Shown one piece after another: positions 21,309 through 32,692 of a stretch of DNA of 64,000 nt (position 1 is its first letter; every line of letters starts with the position of its first letter). The notes under the pieces were generated by a model. It worked only from the letters and a program-made list of their open reading frames with translations, ran no database searches and was not told the DNA's origin. The position numbers and the translations under genes were made by a program. The stretch spans positions 1 through 64,000 of the forward strand of contig JANWYD010000009.1 of the NCBI GenBank assembly GCA_025057155.1, read 5' to 3'. The stretch is from Chloroflexaceae bacterium. GTDB lineage: Bacteria; Chloroflexota; Chloroflexia; Chloroflexales; Chloroflexaceae.

Positions 21309-21560
21309 TACAATCGCTGTATGTTCAATACGGCGCCAGTGCTCATCGGCGCATCCGCCAGGTTCCGTGCTGCACATAGTTCGGTAAAGAGGAGTTGGCG
21401 GGAGGCTTCCATCCTTCCAGACCCTCCTGCTTGAGACCTCGCAGGATGCGACGCTAACACTGCGATCAGACATCATCCTCGCGGGGGGTGCGTTGGTTGA
21501 CGCCCCCCCGCTGTGTTTCCGGCAGCAAGGAGCGATATCGCAGCGCACGGAGAAGGTCGT

Positions 21561-24410
21561 ATGCCACTGGTTGCAAAAGCGTCCGCTCCGCTCTATTCGC
21601 CATCATCTCTGACGGTGCTGCTTCCTCCAGCTCTGCAACGGGCCATCAATGGGGGAATGACCCTGGTGAGCGCCGGGCCTGGCTTTGTATCCTCCGCCGG
21701 TCTCGCCCGGGCGCTAGACGCGCTGCAACGTCGCTGCCTGTGGTTGCGGCTTGGCCTGGAAGATCGCGATCCGGGGATGTTGCTGGTATCGCTGATCGGC
21801 GCGCTGCGCCGGCTGGCGCCCGCTGCCGGCGGCAAGACCCTCGAACTGATGCGCCGGCGCCCCGGCCCGGTGGCCGGCTGGCCGCCGCTCTTCGCCAGCT
21901 TCGCGGAAGAACTGCTCGAAACCCTCGGCCCGGACGGAGCGGTGGTGCTCGAAGCCTGCCATGCTTTCGATGGGGCCACAGGCGCGTTGCGGCTCCTTGG
22001 CATGCACGTGCTTGCCAACCTGCCGCCTGAGACGACCTGTGTGGTGATCACCGAACGGTCGCCGGCAAGCGATGCGCTCCCCGCGAGAATGAAGATCCTC
22101 GGCGCCGATGATGTGCGTATCAGGGATTACCAGTTGCCGGCAGTGCATGAGCACACCGGGGGCGTGTTGCCGCTGCCGCTCCTCCGTCGGGCCAACGCGC
22201 TGGCGGAAGGGCGGATTGAAGCATTCGAGGCCCTCCGGTCCAGTTGCGCAACGCTGGGCTGCGACCTGGTCAGCCGCATGCTCGAAACCTCAGGCGGGCT
22301 ACTTGAACTCCTCACGCGGCTGGCGCAGGCCCATCTGTCGCTGGCGGATCCAGCGGCGCAGCGCAACCTCGACATCGCGCTGCGGATCGGGTACGGTCAC
22401 CCCGATCTGAGCGATCCCGCCCCGGCCTCTGGCCCGTGGTTCGAAGCGCTCGAAGGCGACTGGCACCACCTCAAGACCCTGTGGCGCGAACCGCTCCGGA
22501 TCGCGCTGCGCCAGCGCCCGGCAGAAGTCCGTGCCATCCAGCGCGCCGTCGAGGCGCTGCTGGTGCAGGGAGCGGTGGAACCAGCCGTGGCCCTGCTGCT
22601 CGACACGGGTGAGCGGGCCGGCGCGGCGCGGATCATCGCCCGGATCGCGCCGACGTCAATGGACCTGGGGCAGTGGGACACGCTGGAAGAGTGGTTGAGC
22701 CAGCTCTCGCTCCAGATCCTCAGCGAATGGCCATGGCTGGTGTACATCAGCGGCGAGTTGAGCGCGGCCCAGGGGCAGAACGACGCCGCTCAGCGGGCCT
22801 TTCACCTCGCCACGCGCCTGTTTACCGCCCGGCACGACCCGCGGGGCGCCTGCCAGAGCCTGCTGGCGGAGAGCACCCTGGCCGTCTGGCAGGGCGAGAG
22901 CGGGTTGGCGCGCGCCCGCGCACTGGCCGCGAGCCACCTGGCCGAGTCGTCCGGCCTGTCCTCGCAGCAAGCCTGGGCGTGCTGGCAACTGGGATGCCTG
23001 GCGGTGGTCGCTGACGATCTCGATACGGCCCTGGATTATTTCGAGCGCGCCACGAATATCGCCTCCTCCGCGGGCGACGCGTTGATGGCAGCGTTACCGC
23101 AACGAGCCAGTGGCCTGGCTCTAAACCAGCGCGACCTGCGAGTGCGTTGCGAGTTTCACCGGCAAACGCTGCAAGCCCTGGAGCAAACCGAGCGCGAGGT
23201 GGGAGAAGCGCTGCGGGCCTTGCTCACCTCGACCACCCTTGATATCGAGCAGTTGCTGGAAGCCTATGGCTGGGCCCATCTGCCCCTGATGCTGAAACTG
23301 GCCGCGCCCGCGCGCGTAGAGCATGCCCTGGAAGTGGGGCGCAAAACCAGCCTGTGGGGCCGGTTGCTGGACATGCTCCGTGGCGGATACCGGCAGCCGA
23401 TTGGTGGGGAGAGAGCGCGGAACGGCGCAGGGCGGACGCGGATAGCGGAGGGGACAACCATTATCGGCGCCAGCGAGCGCTCGCCGGCCGGACCGCTCCA
23501 CATCCAGACTGTACCGGCGGCGCCCGGCGCTGCCTCCGCACGAGCGACGCCAGCGCAGGCGGTCGCTGCCGCAGTTGAGCCAGAGACGGCGGCGCGTCCT
23601 GCCGCGACCGGGGCGGCGGTCGCCGAACGGACGCGCGAGGCGTCGGCCCCGCCACGGCTGAGCGTCTCGATGCTCGGCTCCTTCCGAGTGATGCTGAATG
23701 AACACGTGGTTGAAGGCTTCAACAGCGGGCGAGGTCGGGCGGTGTTCCAGTATCTCATCGTTCATCATGACCGCCCGGCGCCGCGCGAGGTGCTGATGGA
23801 TTGCTTCTGGCCCGACGCAACCCCCGAGTCGGCCCGCAACAGCCTGAACGTGGCCGTGCACCACGCGCGGCAGGCTTTTCGCCCCCTGACCAATGCGCCG
23901 ATCATCCTCTACAAGGATGGAGCCTACAGCCTCAATCCGGATCTCCGGCTCTGGATAGACTTCGTCTCCTTTGAACGGCACGTGCAGCACGCCCGCAAGC
24001 TCGAGGCCGAAGGGTTTCCAGGAGAGGCGTGCGCGGCATATGAGGCGGCTCTGGGCCTGTATCAAGATGACTTTCTGGTTGATGAGCCGTATGAGGAGTG
24101 GACGGTGCTGACGCGCGAGCGGCTGCGGCTGATCTACCTGGAAGCCCTGGATCGCCTGAGCCAGATCTATATGAGCCAGGGACGTTACGGGCCGGCGGCG
24201 AGCCTGTGCCAGCTTATCCTCGCCCGGGATAATTGCCGCGAGGACGCTCATGCCCGTTTGATGCGCTGCTATAGCCGCCAGGGCCAGTTGCCGCTGGCGA
24301 TTCGCCAGTACCAGTTGTGCGTGCAGGCCCTCGCCACCGAACTGAACATCGGCCCTTCACCGATGATTGAGACCCTCTACGAGCAGCTCCGGCGCCGGGA
24401 GACGGTGTGA
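21561..24410 (+). CDS. BTAD-family transcription regulator with degenerate NTPase domain
   Basis: 949 residues. The N-terminus follows the layout of MalT/STAND regulators, but where Walker A is expected it reads LVSAGPGFVSSAGLARAL (about residues 35-52) with no GKT/S, and the Walker B-like VVLEACHAF (128-136) has Glu in place of the usual Asp. The middle is alpha-helical and TPR-like (about 330-620), followed by an Ala/Pro-rich linker. Residues ~700-795 form an OmpR-type winged helix (LSVSMLGSFRVMLN, LMDCFWPDATPESARNSLNVAVHHARQAF) and ~797-949 the BTAD helical repeat domain. The ATG at 21561 has GGAG upstream. I infer an activator that has lost nucleotide switching. It lies 194 bases upstream of the HhH/protease cluster in the same direction and may control it. 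Confidence 0.82.
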   Translation: MPLVAKASAPLYSPSSLTVLLPPALQRAINGGMTLVSAGPGFVSSAGLARALDALQRRCLWLRLGLEDRDPGMLLVSLIGALRRLAPAAGGKTLELMRRRPGPVAGWPPLFASFAEELLETLGPDGAVVLEACHAFDGATGALRLLGMHVLANLPPETTCVVITERSPASDALPARMKILGADDVRIRDYQLPAVHEHTGGVLPLPLLRRANALAEGRIEAFEALRSSCATLGCDLVSRMLETSGGLLELLTRLAQAHLSLADPAAQRNLDIALRIGYGHPDLSDPAPASGPWFEALEGDWHHLKTLWREPLRIALRQRPAEVRAIQRAVEALLVQGAVEPAVALLLDTGERAGAARIIARIAPTSMDLGQWDTLEEWLSQLSLQILSEWPWLVYISGELSAAQGQNDAAQRAFHLATRLFTARHDPRGACQSLLAESTLAVWQGESGLARARALAASHLAESSGLSSQQAWACWQLGCLAVVADDLDTALDYFERATNIASSAGDALMAALPQRASGLALNQRDLRVRCEFHRQTLQALEQTEREVGEALRALLTSTTLDIEQLLEAYGWAHLPLMLKLAAPARVEHALEVGRKTSLWGRLLDMLRGGYRQPIGGERARNGAGRTRIAEGTTIIGASERSPAGPLHIQTVPAAPGAASARATPAQAVAAAVEPETAARPAATGAAVAERTREASAPPRLSVSMLGSFRVMLNEHVVEGFNSGRGRAVFQYLIVHHDRPAPREVLMDCFWPDATPESARNSLNVAVHHARQAFRPLTNAPIILYKDGAYSLNPDLRLWIDFVSFERHVQHARKLEAEGFPGEACAAYEAALGLYQDDFLVDEPYEEWTVLTRERLRLIYLEALDRLSQIYMSQGRYGPAASLCQLILARDNCREDAHARLMRCYSRQGQLPLAIRQYQLCVQALATELNIGPSPMIETLYEQLRRRETV

Positions 24411-24604
24411 TGCGCCCTTTCCGGCCCGGTACGCGTGTTGCCGCCCGGCGACACTTGTGATATTCTTCCCGCCGAGATGCCGCGTCCGGCGGTCTATGCC
24501 TCCCGCGCGCCAGTAGGAGCATTTCGTTTGCAGGGTTCCAGCAGGAGGAAACCATCTCTTCGCGTCTCTCCGTCCATCTTTCAGGCGCGCTGTCGAGATC
24601 GTCT

Positions 24605-25654
24605 ATGACCGACGCTTACGACTGGCACGAAGAAGCGAGCGAATCCGGATTACCGGGCGATGATTTCACTCGTATCGCCGGCATTGGTCCGGTAATCAAA
24701 CGGCAACTGTACGCGGCAGGCATTCGCACCTTTCAGCAACTTGCAGCCATCGCGCCGGAAGATATCATCCGTCTGGCGAAGGATCTGCCCCTGCTCTCGG
24801 TCGAGCGGATCATCCGCCAGGACTGGACCGGTCAGGCGCGCCGGCTGGCCGCGGAACGGTCCAGAGAGAGGGCCGCCAGATACGACCTGCCGGCCGGTGA
24901 TCGCGGCGTGCGCGTTGAGGTCGTGGCGATCAGCCTCGATGACGTGGCGGACGACCGACGACTGCCGCGCCCGGCACGGCGCTTTCAGGCGCGTCTGTAT
25001 CTGCGTTTGCGCGGCCCGCGCGCCTTCCCCGTAGCCGCCGAACGGCTCTGGTTTACCACGTTGCTGCTGGCATGGAGCTATGCCACGGGAGCGGCGCGGG
25101 TGTTGAGCAGCGGTCGAGCGCGCCTCAGCGCCGACCGGCTGGTTTACAGCCCGGCTCTCACGGGCGCCCTGACCGATGATGACCGCTATCACCTGGCGGG
25201 GATAGCGTTTCTCGCCGATGAAGCGGTAGTGGGGCATGCTTCCGGCCCCTATCTGTTCGGACCACGCCCCCCCGCCGCGCGCCGCCTCGCGCCGCCAGAC
25301 GTGTCGGCGCGAATTCAGAGGATCATCCTCGATGCTCCGTCCGGCGCGCCCTTCCTGGCCGCCGACCACCCCGTCGAGGCGGCAATCCGCTTCCGGGTCG
25401 AACCGGCCCCCGCCCGGGGCGCGACGGGCTTTGCCTGCCTGCTGGCGCACGAAGCCTCCACGGGAAGAATGCTGATCCTGGGCGGGGAAGGCCGGGAACT
25501 CCAGGCGGGCCGGCGCGACCAGACCATCACGATGACCTTGCGCGCGTCCGGCGCTGCGCGCTACCACTTGATTAGCGCCGTCTTTGTGCCCGAAATGAGC
25601 CTGCTCGACGTGGCCGCCGGCCCCGTGATCCGGGTCGCGCGACAGGAACGGTGA
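24605..25654 (+). CDS. HhH-domain protein with C-terminal beta domain (module 1)
   Basis: 349 residues, no signal peptide or membrane helix. Residues ~21-75 form a helix-hairpin-helix unit resembling DUF4332 (FTRIAGIGPVIKRQLYAAGI, then LAAIAPEDIIRLAKDL), a fold that often binds DNA or mediates protein contacts. The remainder is beta-rich. The last ~60 residues read LQAGRRDQTITM...VPEMSLLDVAAGPVIRV, which aligns by eye with the end of the protein at 28044-29060 (LQPGRREYTLTL...VPQFALAGTTTGPAFTV). The two are therefore paralogues of the same design. The protease gene starts 3 bases after its stop, so they are translationally coupled. Function unknown. Confidence 0.75.
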   Translation: MTDAYDWHEEASESGLPGDDFTRIAGIGPVIKRQLYAAGIRTFQQLAAIAPEDIIRLAKDLPLLSVERIIRQDWTGQARRLAAERSRERAARYDLPAGDRGVRVEVVAISLDDVADDRRLPRPARRFQARLYLRLRGPRAFPVAAERLWFTTLLLAWSYATGAARVLSSGRARLSADRLVYSPALTGALTDDDRYHLAGIAFLADEAVVGHASGPYLFGPRPPAARRLAPPDVSARIQRIILDAPSGAPFLAADHPVEAAIRFRVEPAPARGATGFACLLAHEASTGRMLILGGEGRELQAGRRDQTITMTLRASGAARYHLISAVFVPEMSLLDVAAGPVIRVARQER

Positions 25655-25657
25655 CCC

Positions 25658-26728
25658 ATGGAGGTCGGGGACGATCCGCGCCAGGAGCACGACCGGCGCC
25701 AGGAGCAACCTTCCAACCCTTCCTCACATTCCTATGCTCTGGAGCAGCCGTCCTTGACAGGCCAAACCGCACGCACCCCTTCAGAGCCTGAGGACGACTC
25801 GCCAGTCACCAGCGAGGCGCCGAGCACCTGGGAAGAGGAGATCGGCGCCCCCGTGTACGGCGAACTGGCCCCTCCGGGACGTATGCGGCGCGATCTGGAG
25901 ATCGAGCCGCTCTCGCCGTCCGCCACGCTACTCACCACGTCACAGCCACAGAGGCCGGCTGAAGCCTATCTCCTTGATGCGTGGTACGCAACCTTTGGTC
26001 ATCCAGGACTGACTGCGCGCCTCCAGCGTCCGGGACTGGCCGAGATGCTCTTCAGCGTGCCCGAGCCGAGTGACCTGCGCGTGGCGATCACCGACACCAC
26101 GGCCTACCCCTGGCGCTGCGTGTGCGGATTGATTATCACCGCCGCCGACGGCAGCCAGTGGCTGGGCACCGGCTGGCTGGCCGGCCCCTGCCTGGTGGTG
26201 ACGGCGGGGCATTGTGTGTATATGCCCTTTCGTGGCGGCTGGGTGGTGGAGGTTGAGGTGATCCCCGGCTGGAACGGCAACGCGCGTCCCTTCGAATCGG
26301 CAATTGCGCAGAGCTTTCGTAGCGTGCGCGGCTGGGTGCACAAACTTTCGCTCGCCCACAATTATGGCGCGATTGTGCTGCCCGTGGATCGCCGCTACGG
26401 GGAGCGCCTCGGCTCGCTCGGCTTCATGCGCCCCGCCTATCGTGATCTGCGCGAGCGCGCGCTCAACCTGGCCGGTTATCCCTGTGACAAGCCGCGCGGC
26501 ACCCTGTGGTATCAGGCTCGCCGGCTAGAGATGGGCACGGAGCGCACCCTGGAATACCCCATCACCACGGCGGGCGGCGAGAGCGGCGCGCCAATCTGGT
26601 TGCTGCGCAATGGCGAGCGGTATGTCATTGGCATGCAGACCGGCGGCGACGCTGCAGGGAGCGCGGCGGTGCGGCTCAACGAGGCCGTGTTTGCCAATCT
26701 GAGCCTGTGGAAAAGCGAAAGCTCCTGA
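25658..26728 (+). CDS. Trypsin/V8-like serine protease homologue, Asp replaced by Asn
   Basis: 356 residues. Residues 1-~100 are polar, Pro/Glu/Ser-rich and lack a signal peptide. The protease domain (~145-350) has VTAGHCVY with His 185 and GGESGAPIW with Ser 309, the usual nucleophile setting of glutamyl-endopeptidase-like (S1B) enzymes. At the catalytic Asp position the sequence is AHNYGAIVL (Asn 235), whereas the paralogue at 29060-30127 has THDYGAIIL. It may be weakly active, inactive or a binding decoy. Shared flanking motifs AYPWRC.C...ITAADG and LNLAGYP.DKP show that the two proteases are close relatives. It follows the HhH gene by 3 bases. Confidence 0.88.
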   Translation: MEVGDDPRQEHDRRQEQPSNPSSHSYALEQPSLTGQTARTPSEPEDDSPVTSEAPSTWEEEIGAPVYGELAPPGRMRRDLEIEPLSPSATLLTTSQPQRPAEAYLLDAWYATFGHPGLTARLQRPGLAEMLFSVPEPSDLRVAITDTTAYPWRCVCGLIITAADGSQWLGTGWLAGPCLVVTAGHCVYMPFRGGWVVEVEVIPGWNGNARPFESAIAQSFRSVRGWVHKLSLAHNYGAIVLPVDRRYGERLGSLGFMRPAYRDLRERALNLAGYPCDKPRGTLWYQARRLEMGTERTLEYPITTAGGESGAPIWLLRNGERYVIGMQTGGDAAGSAAVRLNEAVFANLSLWKSESS

Positions 26729-27092
26729 TACGATCTTGTAAAAAAGGCATTCTCGCGAAGAGTCCTCACGCCATTTCCTGACAACCACGGGCGCGCAGGC
26801 ATCATCGCCTGGTCGCAGCGCGACGCCGTATACGACCCCTCAAAATCCACATTCCAAAATCAAAAGTCAGGGTCTCAACAACCGCAATAAGCGAAATTTA
26901 AGCCTCTCCCGCGGCGCCGTCCGGACACGGCGCGCGCAGCGCCTCATGATTTAGTCCGAAATTATCCTTGCTTTAGACTCGATTAAGCGGGTTTCTCTAA
27001 AGTAGCCTCGCTTCCAGGCAGAGGCGCAATTATCTGGAAGCCGGGCAACCAATGGTGGTTGTCTGCGTAGAGGTCACGAAAGGAGCCATGCT
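26729..27092. other. Intergenic region inside the HhH/protease cluster
   Basis: 364 bases with no credible gene. It holds a GCGCCGT-N6-ACGGCGC hairpin near 26920 and an AT-rich stretch (26950-27005) with a CTTTAGA...TCTAAAG inverted repeat (26971-26977, 26996-27002) just ahead of the next gene, suggesting a separate promoter or operator. It ends in AAAGGAG before the ATG at 27093. Confidence 0.45.
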
Positions 27093-27857
27093 ATGACGAC
27101 CGCTATCGAGCAGCCGACGTTCAAGCTCAGCAAGAGGCTGGAAGTGGTCACTGCCGCGGAACTGGGCGCCCGTGGGCCCGAGGTTGCTCTGACGCCTGAG
27201 GAGCTGGAGCCGGCCGAGAACTGGCGCCTGAGCCACCAGCCGCGTCTGATCGAGGCAGCCGAAAGATACGTGCGCGGTCTGATCGCCTCCGCGGCGAAGG
27301 GCAATGGCAAAGGCGCGGAGGAAATAGGCGGCCCGCGGGTTGGCCCCTACGTGCCCTGGGACGTGGTGGCCTATTCGCCGATTGAACTTGGCGGCGCCGG
27401 ATTGATCGGTGAACCGAACAAGATCGTTCCGGCGGGAAGCTGGATCGTCGTCTATGCCCTGATGTGGGCCAACCCGGTGTCCGACCCGGTTCACGGCTAT
27501 AAGGTGCCTGCAAATATGCAGCTTGGCGGGCGGCCCTACCGCGTCACCTGCCATCAACTGAGCAAGACCACCGGGGCGGCGCTGCCGCCGATGAGCTACA
27601 CCGGCACCTTCCCGGCGGTCGTGCCGGCGTTGAGCTGGTGGCCATTCTATATCAAGACCCCCGCTACGACCACGGCCGAGCTGATCGAGGTCAACATCAC
27701 CGCCGATATTGAGTTCCCGGCTCAGCCATTCGCCGCCTTCGCCACCTGGCACTACGACGTGGATATGGAATTGCCCTGGTTCTGGGGCTTCCCGCCGCCG
27801 GTTCCTCCGCAGTGGCGGCACGGCATGCCGATGCAGTATCTGGTCTTCCCCCAGTAG
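27093..27857 (+). CDS. Unknown beta-rich cytosolic protein in protease cluster
   Basis: 254 residues; family not recognised. The start is well supported by AAAGGAG seven bases upstream. An N-terminal helical part (~1-85) is followed by a basic Gly/Lys stretch (SAAKGNGKGAEE) and a beta-rich, aromatic C-terminal half (YVPWDVVAYSPIEL, IVPAGSWIVVYALMW, PALSWWPFYI, ATWHYDVDMELPWFWGF) that ends in a Pro/Trp-rich tail. No signal peptide, membrane helix or catalytic motif was seen. It sits between the two HhH/protease modules on the same strand, so it could be a structural component or a substrate of the proteases; this is inference only. Confidence 0.6.
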   Translation: MTTAIEQPTFKLSKRLEVVTAAELGARGPEVALTPEELEPAENWRLSHQPRLIEAAERYVRGLIASAAKGNGKGAEEIGGPRVGPYVPWDVVAYSPIELGGAGLIGEPNKIVPAGSWIVVYALMWANPVSDPVHGYKVPANMQLGGRPYRVTCHQLSKTTGAALPPMSYTGTFPAVVPALSWWPFYIKTPATTTAELIEVNITADIEFPAQPFAAFATWHYDVDMELPWFWGFPPPVPPQWRHGMPMQYLVFPQ

Positions 27858-28043
27858 CCAGCGCCTGACCCGGCGGGGCGCGCGCTTCGCAGCCGCGTCG
27901 CTCCGCCGGGGAGGAGCGGGGGATCGCCATAGGGAGGCGGATTCCTCCCTGGTGCGATCCCCTGGCTTATCCATGGCGCAACCTGGAAGGTTGTGTCCAC
28001 CTTCTTCCAACGGCTCGCAAGCATAGAGAACCACGAGGTGGCT

Positions 28044-29060
28044 ATGGAGCCCGAAACCGCGCACCCGGAGCGATCCCTGTCAACGTGGGATGAACCTGGC
28101 GCAATCAAAGGCGGCGTCATCAAGGGGATCGGCAAGCAAACCGCCCAGGCGTTCCACGAGGCCGGCATTCATACCTGGAGCGAACTGGCGCGCCTCGATG
28201 CGACCGCGATCGCCGAACGTCTGGGCAGCAGGATCAAGGGGCTGACTCCCGAGCAGATTGAGGAGTGGCGCAACCTGGCCCGCGCCCTGGCCGAGACGGC
28301 AGGGTCCGTTCAGATGCCCGACAAGACGCACGTGGTTACGCTGGAGCTGGTGCTGACCGAACGGCGCGGCGTCTTCAGCACCAAAGCGACCTATGCGCCA
28401 ACCGGCGTCTGGGATCGCTGGGTCGGCTGGAATGCGCGCCGGCTCGAGGCCTTCATCGTCGCCCAGACCGGTTGTCATCTGAGCCTCACGGGCGAAATTG
28501 GAACCCTCGTCAGCGACGACGAGCCGGTGGGTGCGCCGCCAGGGCGCGCCCCGGCGCTTGAAACGCCAGCGGCCTCTGAGCCTGCGACGCTATCTTCTGA
28601 GCTTCAGGCCCCGGCGGCTCCACCTGCGCCCCCCGCGCCGGAAGTCTCAGCGCCGCCTCAGGAAGCCCTGGCAACTTCGCCCGCGCCGCAGGCGCCCGAG
28701 GCGCTGATCCTCGAAGTCGGGCCGCTCACCCTGCAGGCGCTGGATCACCAACGCGGACGGGCGACCCTGTCATTCAGGCTGGGTGGCGCGAACGTCAGGC
28801 AGGCGCTCGACAGCGGGGCGCTGGCCGAGATTGAACTGTGCGGCTGCGCGGGCGAACGGGGTGAGGAGCTTCCTCTTGCTTCGACGCGCCACCGGCTTCA
28901 GCCCGGACGCCGCGAGTACACCCTGACGCTCGAGTTCGCGCCGTATGCCGTAGGACGGTTCCAGGCGTGCGCGACGGTGCGCGTGCCACAGTTTGCGCTC
29001 GCCGGCACGACGACCGGACCAGCCTTCACGGTGGAACCGCCCAACCAGGAGGAACAGTGA
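28044..29060 (+). CDS. HhH-domain protein with C-terminal beta domain (module 2)
   Basis: 338 residues from the ATG at 28044, which follows GAGGTG. Residues ~20-80 are a helix-hairpin-helix/DUF4332-like unit (GVIKGIGKQTAQAFHEAGI, LARLDATAIAERLG). A short alpha/beta segment (~98-160) is followed by a long Pro/Ala-rich linker (~165-225) and a C-terminal beta-sandwich-like domain (~230-330) ending in LQPGRREYTLTL...VPQFALAGTTTGPAFTV, matching the end of the protein at 24605-25654. No export signal. Its stop codon overlaps the start of the next protease (TGATG), so translation is coupled. It is the second copy of the HhH-beta/protease module. Confidence 0.75.
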   Translation: MEPETAHPERSLSTWDEPGAIKGGVIKGIGKQTAQAFHEAGIHTWSELARLDATAIAERLGSRIKGLTPEQIEEWRNLARALAETAGSVQMPDKTHVVTLELVLTERRGVFSTKATYAPTGVWDRWVGWNARRLEAFIVAQTGCHLSLTGEIGTLVSDDEPVGAPPGRAPALETPAASEPATLSSELQAPAAPPAPPAPEVSAPPQEALATSPAPQAPEALILEVGPLTLQALDHQRGRATLSFRLGGANVRQALDSGALAEIELCGCAGERGEELPLASTRHRLQPGRREYTLTLEFAPYAVGRFQACATVRVPQFALAGTTTGPAFTVEPPNQEEQ

Positions 29061-30127
29061 TGGCAGACCAGACCAGTCCGACCGGGATCATCGGTCGCGA
29101 GCAACTCCAAAAGATCAGCACTGATCGGCGACAGGAGAGGAGCGTCTACGAGACCGGCGGAGAGGGCGACGACACGCCGGTCACCAGTTTCGACGAGACT
29201 GAGACGGCCATCCAGGGCGGCGCCCCCAGCTACGGCGCCGGTGGCGAACCCGCGCCGATTGGCGCGGGCCGGGTGCTGGAGGACCTGCCAGGCTACCATC
29301 TGCCGGGGGCCGTGGAGCGAGCCGAAGCGCGCGCCCTTGGCGGCGCCGCCACGCTGGCGGCGGAGGAGAGCAGACCCGCAGCCCGCTTGCTCGATGCCTG
29401 GTTCGCTGATCTGCCCTTACGCTCTAACGCGGAAGTGCTTGGCATGGTCCAGGAAGTACTCATCGGCCCCGATGACCGGGTGCAGGTGACAAGCACGCGG
29501 GAGTACCCCTGGCGTTGCATCTGCGCGCTGGAGATCACCGCCGCCGATGGAACGCGCTGGATCGGCACCGGTTTCTTCGTTGGCCCGCGCACCGTGCTTA
29601 CCGCCGGTCACTGCGTTTACATCCACGGGCGCGGCGGATGGGCGAGAAGCATTCGCCTCGTTCCAGGAGCCAACGGCGCCGAAGCGCCGTTCGGCGCATT
29701 GAGCAGCGGCGATCTGCGCAGTGTGCGCGGCTGGACCGAGAAGCGCCTGCGGACCCACGACTATGGCGCGATTATTCTGCCCCGAAGCTACACCGCCGGC
29801 GAACAGATCGGCTGGTTCGGCTATGCAAACCTGCCCGATGTGGAACTGAGCCAGGCGATTGTCAATCTGGCGGGTTATCCTGGCGACAAACCCCTCAAGA
29901 CCCAGTGGTTCCATGGCCGCGAAGTGACCAGGGTTGACCGGCGGACCATCACCTATCTGATAGACACTATGGGCGGCCAGAGCGGTTCGCCGGTGTGGCG
30001 CATCAAAGACGGGCAGCGTTACGTGGTGGGCATTCACACCAATGGTGACGCAAGCGGCAACTCGGCCACCCGCGTCTGCGCGCCGGTGGCGGCGAACATC
30101 CGGCGCTGGATCGAGGAGGGAGGGTAG
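29060..30127 (+). CDS. Trypsin/V8-like serine protease with complete triad
   Basis: 355 residues. An acidic, Gly/Glu-rich N-terminal region of ~105 residues without a signal peptide may act as a propeptide or targeting arm. The S1B-like domain has LTAGHCVY (His 184), THDYGAIIL (Asp 234) and GGQSGSPVW (Ser 308), so the triad is intact, unlike the paralogue at 25658-26728. The start overlaps the stop of the upstream HhH protein. The absence of a secretion signal in both proteases implies an intracellular target or export by a non-Sec route. Likely specificity after Glu/Asp, as for V8-like enzymes, is only a family-level guess. Confidence 0.9.
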   Translation: MADQTSPTGIIGREQLQKISTDRRQERSVYETGGEGDDTPVTSFDETETAIQGGAPSYGAGGEPAPIGAGRVLEDLPGYHLPGAVERAEARALGGAATLAAEESRPAARLLDAWFADLPLRSNAEVLGMVQEVLIGPDDRVQVTSTREYPWRCICALEITAADGTRWIGTGFFVGPRTVLTAGHCVYIHGRGGWARSIRLVPGANGAEAPFGALSSGDLRSVRGWTEKRLRTHDYGAIILPRSYTAGEQIGWFGYANLPDVELSQAIVNLAGYPGDKPLKTQWFHGREVTRVDRRTITYLIDTMGGQSGSPVWRIKDGQRYVVGIHTNGDASGNSATRVCAPVAANIRRWIEEGG

Positions 30128-30131
30128 GATG

Positions 30132-30236
30132 ATTTCAGATTTTGGATTTTGGATTTTGGATTTTGGATTGCTATGGCTGGCGTCCGGAGGGCAGGTGGCG
30201 ATGTGCGCATGAAGTCCGTTCAAGGGAACCGGCTTG
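30132..30236 (+). repeat. Repeat family C, copy 1
   Basis: Begins with tandem GGATTTT units, then ATTGC, a GGCGTCC block, TGGCGATG and TTCAAGGGAACCGG. The same order of blocks occurs at 34862-34970 and 45071-45177, all on the plus strand and each just after a gene. This copy ends at the ribosome-binding site of the next small gene. Confidence 0.6.
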
Positions 30237-30250
30237 AGGAGGAGGCAGGC

Positions 30251-30532
30251 ATGGATGTTCAGACCCGGGCGCGGAGCGAAGCGAGCATCGCCGGGCAGGT
30301 GCGCACCGCCAGCGGTGCGCCCGTCGCCGACGCGGTGGTGATGATCACCGCTCCCAGCCCGCCCCATCCCGACATCGCGGCGCTGACCGATGCACAGGGA
30401 CGCTACCGCTTCGACGGGTTGATCGCCGGACGCTACACGCTACAGGTGAACGCGACCGGCTACGCTCCGCGAACCGGCGCGGTGCAGACGCGTCCCGGCG
30501 AAACGGTCCGGCTCGATTTCGTGGTGGAGTAG
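30251..30532 (+). CDS. Single CarboxypepD_reg-like (Ig-fold) domain protein
   Basis: 93 residues from the ATG at 30251, which follows GAGGAGGAGG. The sequence is one carboxypeptidase-regulatory-like beta-sandwich: SIAGQVRTASGAPVADAVV, ALTDAQGRYRFDGLIAGRYTL, TRPGETVRLDF. Such domains normally decorate surface proteins, but here there is no signal peptide or partner domain. It is the last gene of the HhH/protease cluster, 123 bases after the second protease, and may be an accessory or substrate protein. An upstream in-frame start at 30149 would translate the repeat and is rejected. Confidence 0.7.
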   Translation: MDVQTRARSEASIAGQVRTASGAPVADAVVMITAPSPPHPDIAALTDAQGRYRFDGLIAGRYTLQVNATGYAPRTGAVQTRPGETVRLDFVVE

Positions 30533-30905
30533 GAGCGGCCACTCGCGCCTCCCTACGAAACCTTGTCGAAGCGAGTGGAACGTCGCGCGTGATCGGCAGG
30601 AACGGCTCAGCCTCCGGCCTTTCTGCCAGTCGGAAACGGAAGGGACGACCGCCGGGTCGCCCCTTCTGATTTGTTCGTCGGTTGCAGACGCGACGGATTA
30701 TCCGCGGGCAGGGGCGGGTTTCTTAAGTTTTATGCATTAGATCCGGCATCTCTTGCCGGCAGCGCCCTGAGCCGGTCAGCGGGCGGGTTTCGCTCCCGCC
30801 CTCTGACAGTCTCGGAGTGGAATACCCGCATAAATACGTTATGGAAGCGGCTTTCAACTAAACTTTCGCTATATAAAACCAGACGATGCCAAAACAGGAA
30901 TACCA

Positions 30906-30934
30906 TTGAAAACGATATTTGATAGTAATACTCT
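30906..30934 (+). promoter_or_regulatory. Promoter candidate for receiver/HEAT/GT operon
   Basis: TTGAAA (30906-30911), 17-base spacer, TACTCT (30929-30934) inside the AT-rich part of the gap. It would give a leader of about 260 bases ending past the hairpin at 31117. The -10 box is a weak match. Confidence 0.3.
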
Positions 30935-31116
30935 GCCCTTTTCACCACATGGACTATGGGAATATACGACGAACAGGCTATTCAGAACGCGAGATTTATC
31001 GAATATCTTTACTCTTACAGCGCATCGCTTACAGCACGTAGCACCTTTACTGCCGACCACGCGGGTCGGACAAGATGGCGAGGCGACCCCGAGGGCATCC
31101 AGATACCCGGGCGCGG

Positions 31117-31150
31117 CGAACCGGGCCTGGCGCGCCACCGGCCCGGTTCG
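31117..31150. promoter_or_regulatory. Strong leader hairpin before response regulator
   Basis: 11-bp stem CGAACCGGGCC / GGCCCGGTTCG enclosing TGGCGCGCCA, itself a palindrome, 48 bases upstream of the receiver-domain gene. No T run follows, so it is not a typical terminator; it could be a leader structure or a protein-binding palindrome. Confidence 0.45.
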
Positions 31151-31197
31151 CCCTCGCGATTGTGCGACTAAATGCAGCGATCTAACGTGAGACAGCT

Positions 31198-31587
31198 ATG
31201 GCCAGTATCCTCATCGCAGAAGACAACGCCACCATTTTCAAGCTGCTCGACTTTCGGCTTACCCACCTGGGCCACGAGACGATCTGGGCCCGCGATGGCG
31301 AGCAGGCCCTGATCGCCATGCGCGAGCGGCATCCCGATCTGGTGCTGCTTGATGTGTTGATGCCGGTCTACGATGGCTTTCAGGTGCTCACGCATGCCAA
31401 AGCTGATCCGGAACTCAAAGATATTCCCGTGATTATGTTAACGGCCCTCGGACAGGAGAACCACGTTGTCAAGGGGATGCGGCACGGGGCCGACGATTAT
31501 GTGATTAAGCCGTTCAGTTTTCCGGAGGTCATCGCGCGCATAGAGGCGGCGCTCAGCCGGCGCGAGGCGCGGGTGACTACGATGTGA
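31198..31587 (+). CDS. Single-domain response regulator (CheY-like receiver)
   Basis: 129 residues forming one receiver domain. The acidic pocket is Glu 8/Asp 9 (IAEDN), the phospho-acceptor is Asp 52 (LLDVLMP), the switch Thr is 82 (MLTALG) and the conserved Lys is 104 (IKPFS). There is no output domain, so signalling must be through protein contact. It starts an apparent operon with a HEAT-repeat membrane protein (7 bases downstream) and a GT2 glycosyltransferase, suggesting phosphorylation-dependent control of polysaccharide synthesis. No histidine kinase is adjacent. Confidence 0.92.
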   Translation: MASILIAEDNATIFKLLDFRLTHLGHETIWARDGEQALIAMRERHPDLVLLDVLMPVYDGFQVLTHAKADPELKDIPVIMLTALGQENHVVKGMRHGADDYVIKPFSFPEVIARIEAALSRREARVTTM

Positions 31588-31594
31588 GGGCCGC

Positions 31595-32692
31595 GTGTCA
31601 GTGTCCACCACACTGGTTCTCAGCATTATCCTTGTCTGCGGCGGCCTGATTACGGTCCTGGTCGGCGTTCTTATCCTGAGACGCCTGGCGTTGAGAGCGG
31701 CTCGCGCCTACAACCACCGGCGGGAGGCCTTCTTTGAAGATTTGATTTTCCATGCCATCCTGGATCCACAGCATGCCGAGCGCCTGCGCGAGATTGCGCG
31801 CCGGGTGTACGCGCGCCGGTGGGGCGGCGCGCCCGGCCTGCGCCCCTTTGACGTCCGGGCGCTTGAACGCAGCCTGCTGCGAGTCGCCCGAGAGCTGCGC
31901 GGGTCAGAGCGGCAGATGCTTACGGATATTTTCGAGGAGACCGGCGGCCTGGCGCGCGGGCTGCGGCAACTGCGCTCCCCCGGCTGCTGCCGACGACTCG
32001 CCGCGGTGCAGAAGCTGCGGATCATGCGCAGCCGTCAGGCAGTGCCGGAGTTGATCGCCGCGCTCAACGACCGCAGCCGGATCGTGCGCCATGCGGCCCT
32101 GCGCGCCCTGGGGGAGATTGGCGATGAGCGCGCCTACCCCTTCCTGCTGCAAGCCCTGGAGACGCCGGCCCGCTGGTCGCCCCTCCGGGCCGCCGACAGC
32201 GTGCTGGCTGCGGGTGCGGCAATTGCGCCGCTGCTGATCGAGCGATTTGCCGCCGTGCGCGAGCCGCAGATCCGGGCGGTCTACGTGCGTCTGTTTGGCC
32301 TGCTGCGCGATCCGGCGGCAATGCCTCTCCTGCTCCCCCTGCTCGACGCTCCCGAACTCCCCCTCTGCATTGCCGCTATTCAAGCCCTGAGCGCCATTGG
32401 CGACGCCGAGGCGGCCAGCCGTGTGCGCATGATGCTCAGTGATCCGCGCTGGGAAATTCGTGCCGCAGCGGCAACTGCGCTGGGCGCGCTTATGGATCTG
32501 GAGAGCGCGCCGATGCTTGAGCGCCTGCTTGATGATCCGGTATACTTAGTGGGCTACAGCGCTGCGCAGAGCCTGATCACGCTGCGCGGCAAGGGCCGGG
32601 CGATGCTCCAGGAGGCGCCTGAAGCCAGCGAAACCTGCATCGTCCCTCTTGCCCTCCAGGCGCTTGGCGAACTTGCGTATGGTCTTGTATAG
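31595..32692 (+). CDS. Membrane-anchored HEAT-repeat protein
   Basis: 365 residues. One N-terminal membrane helix (LVLSIILVCGGLITVLVGVLIL) is followed by a cytosolic alpha-solenoid. HEAT/PBS-lyase-type repeats are visible from about residue 130, for example AVPELIAALNDRSRIVRHAALRALGEIGD, with further units at ERAYPFLLQAL, RVRMMLSDPRWEIRAAAATALGAL and PMLERLLDDPVYLVGYSAAQ. The start is a GTG (31595 or 31601). Placed between a receiver protein and a processive-type glycosyltransferase, it probably serves as a scaffold linking signal and enzyme at the membrane. Confidence 0.8.
   Translation: MSVSTTLVLSIILVCGGLITVLVGVLILRRLALRAARAYNHRREAFFEDLIFHAILDPQHAERLREIARRVYARRWGGAPGLRPFDVRALERSLLRVARELRGSERQMLTDIFEETGGLARGLRQLRSPGCCRRLAAVQKLRIMRSRQAVPELIAALNDRSRIVRHAALRALGEIGDERAYPFLLQALETPARWSPLRAADSVLAAGAAIAPLLIERFAAVREPQIRAVYVRLFGLLRDPAAMPLLLPLLDAPELPLCIAAIQALSAIGDAEAASRVRMMLSDPRWEIRAAAATALGALMDLESAPMLERLLDDPVYLVGYSAAQSLITLRGKGRAMLQEAPEASETCIVPLALQALGELAYGLV

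Follow-up and report, generated by a model that had tools for sequence, protein, structure and literature searches.

The locus studied here, six consecutive open reading frames (ORFs) on the + strand of a 64,000-nucleotide stretch of a Chloroflexaceae genome (contig JANWYD010000009.1; this whole stretch is called the window), raises the question of what V8-type proteases without a leader do beside HhH-beta proteins, that is, helix-hairpin-helix (HhH) proteins with a C-terminal beta domain. A preliminary description of this DNA saw a duplicated pair of HhH-beta protein and protease, with an unrecognised 254-residue protein (here Beta254) between the copies, and the ORF map bears out its six genes, their coordinates, strand and junctions. 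Across genomes, however, the conserved unit is Beta (the family of Beta254) plus HhH-beta, not HhH plus V8, and the slot held here by V8 is usually filled by a NAL1-like serine protease and once by an M36 protease. We favour, tentatively and at somewhat less than even probability, an intracellular zymogen-protease module under SARP control, in which a constant HhH-beta adaptor and Beta chassis would serve an exchangeable protease.

The features of the cluster are listed below in window coordinates. ORFs were picked heuristically, which misplaced at least HhH1 and the loci L092, L094 and L104; for these, stop-to-stop frames were used.

21561-24410, + strand: SARP-type regulator of 949 residues, BTAD at the C-terminus (Pfam BTAD, 1e-26)
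24605-25654, + strand: HhH1, HhH domain and two beta-sandwich copies (Pfam HHH_5, 1.4e-5)
24908-25255, + strand: second beta copy of HhH1 (profile search, E 2e-11)
25658-26728, + strand: Prot1, V8-type protease homologue without a leader, probable pseudoprotease
26360-26362, + strand: Prot1 codon 235, AAT (Asn) where the catalytic Asp is expected (GAC in Prot2)
26636-26638, + strand: Prot1 codon 327, CAG (Gln) at the S1 His site of glutamyl endopeptidases
27093-27857, + strand: Beta254, helix and Ig-like beta sandwich, a member of the cassette Beta family (21-member alignment, model)
28044-29060, + strand: HhH2, HhH domain, middle domain and C-terminal FN3/CARDB-like beta sandwich
29060-30127, + strand: Prot2, V8-type protease without a leader, His184-Asp234-Ser308 all kept
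29453-29458, + strand: predicted Glu132|Val133 maturation junction of Prot2, mature start VLIGPDDR (alignment to the 1p3c chain N-terminus)
about 30251-30532, + strand: lone CarboxypepD_reg domain protein, start and module membership uncertain (Pfam, 5e-20)

Prot1 follows HhH1 after a 3-base gap, and the HhH2 stop overlaps the Prot2 start by one base (TGATG); judged from these junctions, both V8-type proteases are translationally coupled to their own HhH-beta protein. The SARP/BTAD regulator ahead of HhH1 probably belongs with the cluster, and the frame of the CarboxypepD_reg protein could open as early as 30149. A Pfam scan of nine window proteins (21513-32689) matched HhH2 to HHH_5 at 27.0 bits (cut-off 27) and to DUF4332 at 23.6 (cut-off 23.2), HhH1 to HHH_5 at 25.9 bits, slightly below cut-off, and the last gene to CarboxypepD_reg at 72 bits (cut-off 32.3), in agreement with the domain proposed there. 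The V8/trypsin-like assignment also holds: Prot2 scores 41.7 bits with Pfam Trypsin and matches the glutamyl endopeptidase 1p3c in a sequence search of the PDB (E 2e-18), and Prot1, whose 18.4 bits fall below the Trypsin cut-off (20.6), is 46% identical to Prot2 (137/300). The proteases are therefore duplicates as claimed, but HhH1 and HhH2 share no more than 30% identity and differ in build, HhH1 consisting of HhH, beta and beta domains and HhH2 of HhH, middle and beta domains. A promoter and terminator scan gave nothing informative.

Homologues of Beta254 lie in a recurrent cassette that comprises a SARP, Beta, a NAL1-like serine protease, often a free copy of that protease's N-domain, HhH-beta and a zinc ribbon. 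A scan of a species-genome collection for the NAL1-like protease found 55 stretches and 34 confirmed loci; because it needs exact peptide patterns, this census is a lower bound. Throughout the near clade (22 loci: L090-L109, L112 and L117) Beta stands immediately upstream of the protease, in one case as a fragment (51 residues) where a contig breaks off, except at L106, which begins inside the protease (21/22). HhH-beta lies beside the protease at 17 of the 22 loci; L093 and L099 end before its place, and L101, L105 and L108 show none. A SARP is nearby at 11 loci and a zinc ribbon at eight, plus one weak case. Neither Beta nor HhH-beta was found at any of the 12 remote-clade loci. The profile hidden Markov models behind these neighbour calls were refined iteratively on these very loci, which inflates their E-values. 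Catalytic triads are intact in all 23 near-clade proteases. By record title, the near clade spans Chloroflexota, two gammaproteobacterial metagenome-assembled genomes, two cyanobacteria, one KSB1 and one unplaced bacterium, placements that may in part reflect mis-binning.

Within the class, Beta occurs in at least 15 of 158 genomes, the HhH-beta C-domain in at least 15 and both in at least 14, counts that rest on a capped number of scored candidates per genome; the Fisher p of 6e-18 is overstated, since the genomes are related. Beta254 as sole query finds 11 of the 158. It matches no Pfam family, as its description as unrecognised implies, but with relatives in these genomes it is not an orphan. 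The window's genome itself carries a second cassette on contig C4 (L074) in the order SARP-Beta-NAL1-HhH-beta. The M36 case comes from genome G063 (L046:1194-4382, C996), where a 1063-residue fusion of M36 fungalysin, P-domain and HhH-beta adjoins Beta and a SARP; it has a propeptide motif and no leader, for which the mere 8 residues of open frame ahead of the chosen start leave no space. As for the minor members, the N-domain of the NAL1-like protease stands as a separate gene beside the protease at L051:7901-8140 and at 14 of the 22 near-clade loci and is a candidate inhibitor or chaperone. A small zinc-ribbon protein (SGAEEW.CP.CG.R) recurs near the cassette, at some loci on the opposite strand (L082:2730-3056, L074:10420-10770).

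The V8 version of this arrangement is found in a second genus. We read the loci in all 15 class genomes with an HhH-beta C-domain, one of which (G024) is a contig fragment ending inside the gene. In genome G001, contig C488 carries a SARP (51% identical to the window's), an HhH-beta protein (37% to HhH1, 31% to HhH2) and a V8 N-terminus at the contig end, that is, the SARP / HhH-beta / V8 order of the window. On a second contig, the first gene is the C-terminal piece of a V8 (62% to Prot1, 54% to Prot2), followed by a 173-residue protein, a middle-domain protein and, on the opposite strand, a zinc-ribbon gene. The coupling of a leaderless S1-type protease to a non-enzymatic HhH-beta partner, which the preliminary description considered unusual, is real and recurs in this order; more widespread is HhH-beta in company with Beta and a different protease. 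Ahead of the catalytic domain, Prot1, Prot2 and the G001 V8 N-terminus share LLDAW(F/Y)A, possibly a docking motif; 14 other V8 frames all lack it, and in the 1p3c chain there is no pro-region to test.

The two window proteases are not alike in their key residues. When 16 V8-type frames are aligned together with the 1p3c chain, Prot2 keeps the triad (H184, D234, S308), the S1 His (GIH) and a Glu before the mature Val. By its triad, S1 His and predicted Glu132|Val133 junction, Prot2 is of the S1B glutamyl endopeptidase type, a sequence-based assignment; such enzymes autoprocess at Glu(-1)-Val1, and their S1 His and N-terminal Val matter, according to PMC5508998. Prot1 alone among the aligned rows lacks the catalytic Asp (Asn235), and GAC to AAT takes two base changes, so this is not a single read error. 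It has Gln327 at the S1 site, where one further row deviates (the second L052 copy, with Glu), and no Glu|Val junction equivalent to that of Prot2. Prot1 is probably a catalytically dead pseudoprotease. In a midpoint-rooted tree of 26 V8 domains, the two are sisters (support 97/93), with a branch four times longer for Prot1 (1.31 versus 0.32). That branch, along with the lost Asp and S1 His, would suit a neutral duplication in decay, Prot1 becoming a pseudogene amid incidental neighbours. We find this highly improbable: the Prot1 frame is open for 356 codons, and the order is kept in G001, where HhH-beta is nearer HhH1 and the V8 C-terminal piece nearer Prot1, so that the duplication is probably old.

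Are these proteases truly without leaders? V8 homologues gave 53 matches in 40 of the 158 class genomes, and 26 distinct rows were taken for the leader comparison and the tree. As a proxy for a signal peptide, we used the best 14-residue mean hydropathy ahead of the protease domain, which is 0.59 in Prot1 and 0.76 in Prot2 versus 2.15-3.22 in the 22 rows with an export-like hydrophobic stretch. The remaining two rows below that range are the G141 protein and L047, the latter with a branch of 3.94 and an unclear start that make its leaderless label undependable. Hydropathy revealed no strong hydrophobic segment in the HhH and Beta proteins, and by this proxy the claimed lack of signal peptides holds for the two proteases, the HhH proteins and Beta254. 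Leaderless and leadered rows separate in the tree with support 98/91; given the midpoint root, leader loss and leader gain are indistinguishable. The closest V8 outside the family is that of G141, 45% identical to Prot2 and leaderless by proxy. Unpaired or exported homologues, taken beforehand as speaking against a coupled system, are indeed common: besides the 22 leadered rows, none of 13 V8 loci beyond the window and G001 has HhH-beta or Beta in the flanks read, and most of the V8 homologues sampled outside the cluster stand alone and carry a leader. Pairing nonetheless recurs in G001. At L039:4574-6193 (G028:C514), a leadered V8 is followed by a CarboxypepD_reg protein with a hydrophobic leader (judged by eye, as for some other neighbour genes); from this locus, the window's V8/CarboxypepD_reg neighbourhood may be older than the export loss.

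That V8 and M36, normally secreted classes, lack leaders in these clusters also speaks for export as the load of a contractile injection system, or by some other route that needs no leader; disordered N-termini or HhH-beta would then be loading tags, and the enzymes would act outside. The window's genome has a sheath gene (contig C30). Of the 16 genomes that encode Beta or the HhH-beta C-domain, 12 have one, versus 44 of 142 others (p 0.0014). This association is confounded by kinship, however, and within family f1 (G000-G040) it is 7/8 versus 18/33 (p 0.12). Moreover, the sheath of the window's genome lies on a different contig from the cluster, and the cassette genomes G030 (99% complete), G065, G067 and G068 have no sheath match. 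We consider this explanation quite unlikely; export of cassette proteins by such systems is possible, and the intracellular module does not require it.

A related proposal is that the leaderless hydrolases build up in the cytosol as a cell-death or lysis weapon that, on cell breakage, would hit the cell itself, infecting phage or neighbours. Circumstantial support comes from G141 (L034:1-8282, C219): its leaderless V8 gene lies downstream of genes for SLT, amidase+NlpC/P60 and M23 proteins, which by eye also seem to have no leader, and a CHAT-nSTAND1 gene there is divergent. In published conflict systems of multicellular bacteria, trypsin-like peptidases are employed, and almost all of those in the effector position are catalytically inactive (PMC7159879). 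Yet the 12.7-kb G141 contig has neither HhH-beta nor Beta, Pfam named no NTPase sensor among the nine window proteins, and PADLOC matches are weak, the best being LmuA (4e-8) on the Prot2 protease domain. Beside such weak matches, the stress- or phage-triggered cleavage that the preliminary description gave as an example is a conjecture. As a full account we rate the weapon as unlikely, although a cell-death or conflict role for the cassette is plausible. The G141 row of V8, M23, amidase+NlpC/P60 and SLT genes with CHAT-nSTAND1 is possibly a separate lysis or conflict cluster.

Structure prediction, as the preliminary description had advised, bears on the partners. The Beta254 model (mean predicted local distance difference test score (pLDDT) 65, predicted template modelling score 0.62) has an N-terminal helix (35-68) and a sandwich; a fold search finds it Ig-like, with a best Z of 8.1 over 122 aligned residues at 2.8 Å, possibly just a common arrangement. 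By sequence, its PDB matches are at chance level only. In the HhH2 model the HhH domain (21-87) is confident, and the C-terminal sandwich (221-330) resembles FN3/CARDB/GH2 sandwiches (Z 11.5, 97 residues, 2.3 Å). These predicted folds suggest a partner or scaffold rather than an enzyme. Homology between Beta and the HhH-beta C-domain was considered and is not claimed (hhalign probability 8.8, E 0.004). Beta is the protease's most constant neighbour, and the modelled helix and sandwich of Beta254 could assemble, so one might picture Beta as the building block of some assembled structure in the cytosol that the protease matures, or else plain housekeeping proteolysis. Patchy occurrence (at least 15 of 158 class genomes) speaks against housekeeping, and beyond close relatives no non-cassette gene recurs, by eye, in the neighbourhoods read. 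We hold this to be very unlikely.

Returning to the intracellular zymogen-protease module, we propose the following mechanism. A SARP-type regulator would control the cassette, whose constant parts would be Beta and the HhH-beta adaptor; the protease would be the executor and would be swapped, mostly a NAL1-like S1 enzyme, here V8 (S1B) and once M36. Constancy of Beta and HhH-beta beside an exchangeable protease is what suggests the adaptor and the substrate or scaffold roles. At this locus a secreted-type glutamyl endopeptidase would be retained in the cytosol, with Prot2 produced as a zymogen and bound by its partner HhH2; the Glu|Val junction, its predicted processing site, would offer a switch. 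HhH1-Prot1 would be a diverged sister pair, with Prot1 acting as a binding or regulatory subunit after losing catalysis. On a signal, with HhH binding DNA or protein, Prot2 would be released and mature, and it would then cut a dedicated target, for which Beta254 is the first candidate as substrate or scaffold. Gene order, conserved co-occurrence, proxy-based leader absence and the Prot1 residue losses are observed; the cytosolic zymogen control, the adaptor role, the trigger and the substrate are inferred, as would be any outcome in cell death or defence.

Several observations weigh against this mechanism and keep our support tentative. V8 adjoins an HhH-beta C-domain in only 2 of the 15 genomes, the window's own (G000) and G001, and the G001 V8 consists of an N-terminal piece and a stop-preceded C-terminal piece on two contigs, whose joining we do not claim. 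The HhH2 gene lies between those of Beta254 and Prot2. Ig-like folds are common and point to no function. In a thin phylum sample, at least 9 of 400 genomes have Beta, and every one found belongs to the window's order. Lastly, HhH was undetected in L090 and G001 L156 (middle domain and beta only) and in the L091, L092 and L104 frames (beta only), so the HhH-beta family can do without HhH. A search of 301 phylum genomes with the whole HhH-beta alignment matched at least 45, mostly in the HhH part alone, and HhH-only proteins (among them those of L077, L080, L083, L084 and L089) were excluded because no beta C-domain was found. Two of these loci, L083:5102-6166 and L089:7640-9586, encode proteins with C-terminal HhH domains; the genes beside them resemble gas-vesicle genes in their start sequences.

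Comparison with known systems places the cluster near several of them. Prot2 resembles secreted glutamyl endopeptidases (V8, BIGEP, S1B) in sequence, triad, S1 His and Glu|Val junction, and differs in being leaderless, coupled to HhH-beta and accompanied by a catalytically altered sister. Bacterial gasdermin operons place a protease next to a putative dedicated substrate, much as Prot2 has a candidate dedicated substrate nearby; the Beta254 model resembles an Ig-like sandwich, at a mean pLDDT of only 65, and none of the libraries searched named a gasdermin. Trypsin/caspase conflict systems, known from Chloroflexi and cyanobacteria as well as other groups, share S1-fold peptidases, some of them catalytically dead, that often have partner genes dedicated to them (PMC7159879); the text of that paper does not contain the terms HhH, helix-hairpin-helix, SARP or BTAD. 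In contrast, the Pfam scan of nine window proteins turned up neither a vWA-MoxR nor a STAND NTPase, and the partners here are HhH-beta and Beta; that scan also gave no Trypco1/Trypco2 match, although the library may not include these models. The nuclease-protease pairs of Hachiman and AVAST likewise have a trypsin-like protease with a partner gene, typically upstream, that is its substrate, but that protease forms a fusion with a defence enzyme, and its partner is a metallo-β-lactamase (MBL)-fold nuclease (PMC12799240). No nuclease family, MBL-fold included, matched Beta or HhH-beta in the Pfam scan of the cluster proteins.

Whereas its components are known, we did not find the cassette itself described in the open-access literature searched. 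A bolder reading, possible but doubtful in our judgement, is a new family of intracellular proteolytic effector modules: a SARP-run Beta and HhH-beta chassis would carry proteases of unrelated clans, some of them leaderless formerly secreted zymogens, and here an active and a pseudo-V8, each with an adaptor, would form one death or defence switch. Were the chassis an effector system, a protease-centred kind would be added to those of multicellular bacteria, and Beta and HhH-beta, which the searched libraries leave unnamed, would gain a testable function. In any case, secreted-type proteases (V8 in two genera, M36 once) are tied to an intracellular chassis whose usual protease is NAL1-like, and the cluster offers a probable natural active/pseudo V8 pair.

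A phage origin was considered and rejected: scans of viral contigs with the NAL1-like protease alignment and with Prot2 found no relative. Among 50,697 phage records, 8 match Prot2, and only remotely (27-30% identity). Two function-unknown PHROGs families match the cluster, phrog_13651 on Prot2 (5e-9) and phrog_14789 on the CarboxypepD_reg protein (2e-5), and Beta254 had no match among plasmids. Downstream on the same strand, window positions 31198-32692 encode a response regulator receiver and then a HEAT-repeat protein whose start, by eye, is hydrophobic.

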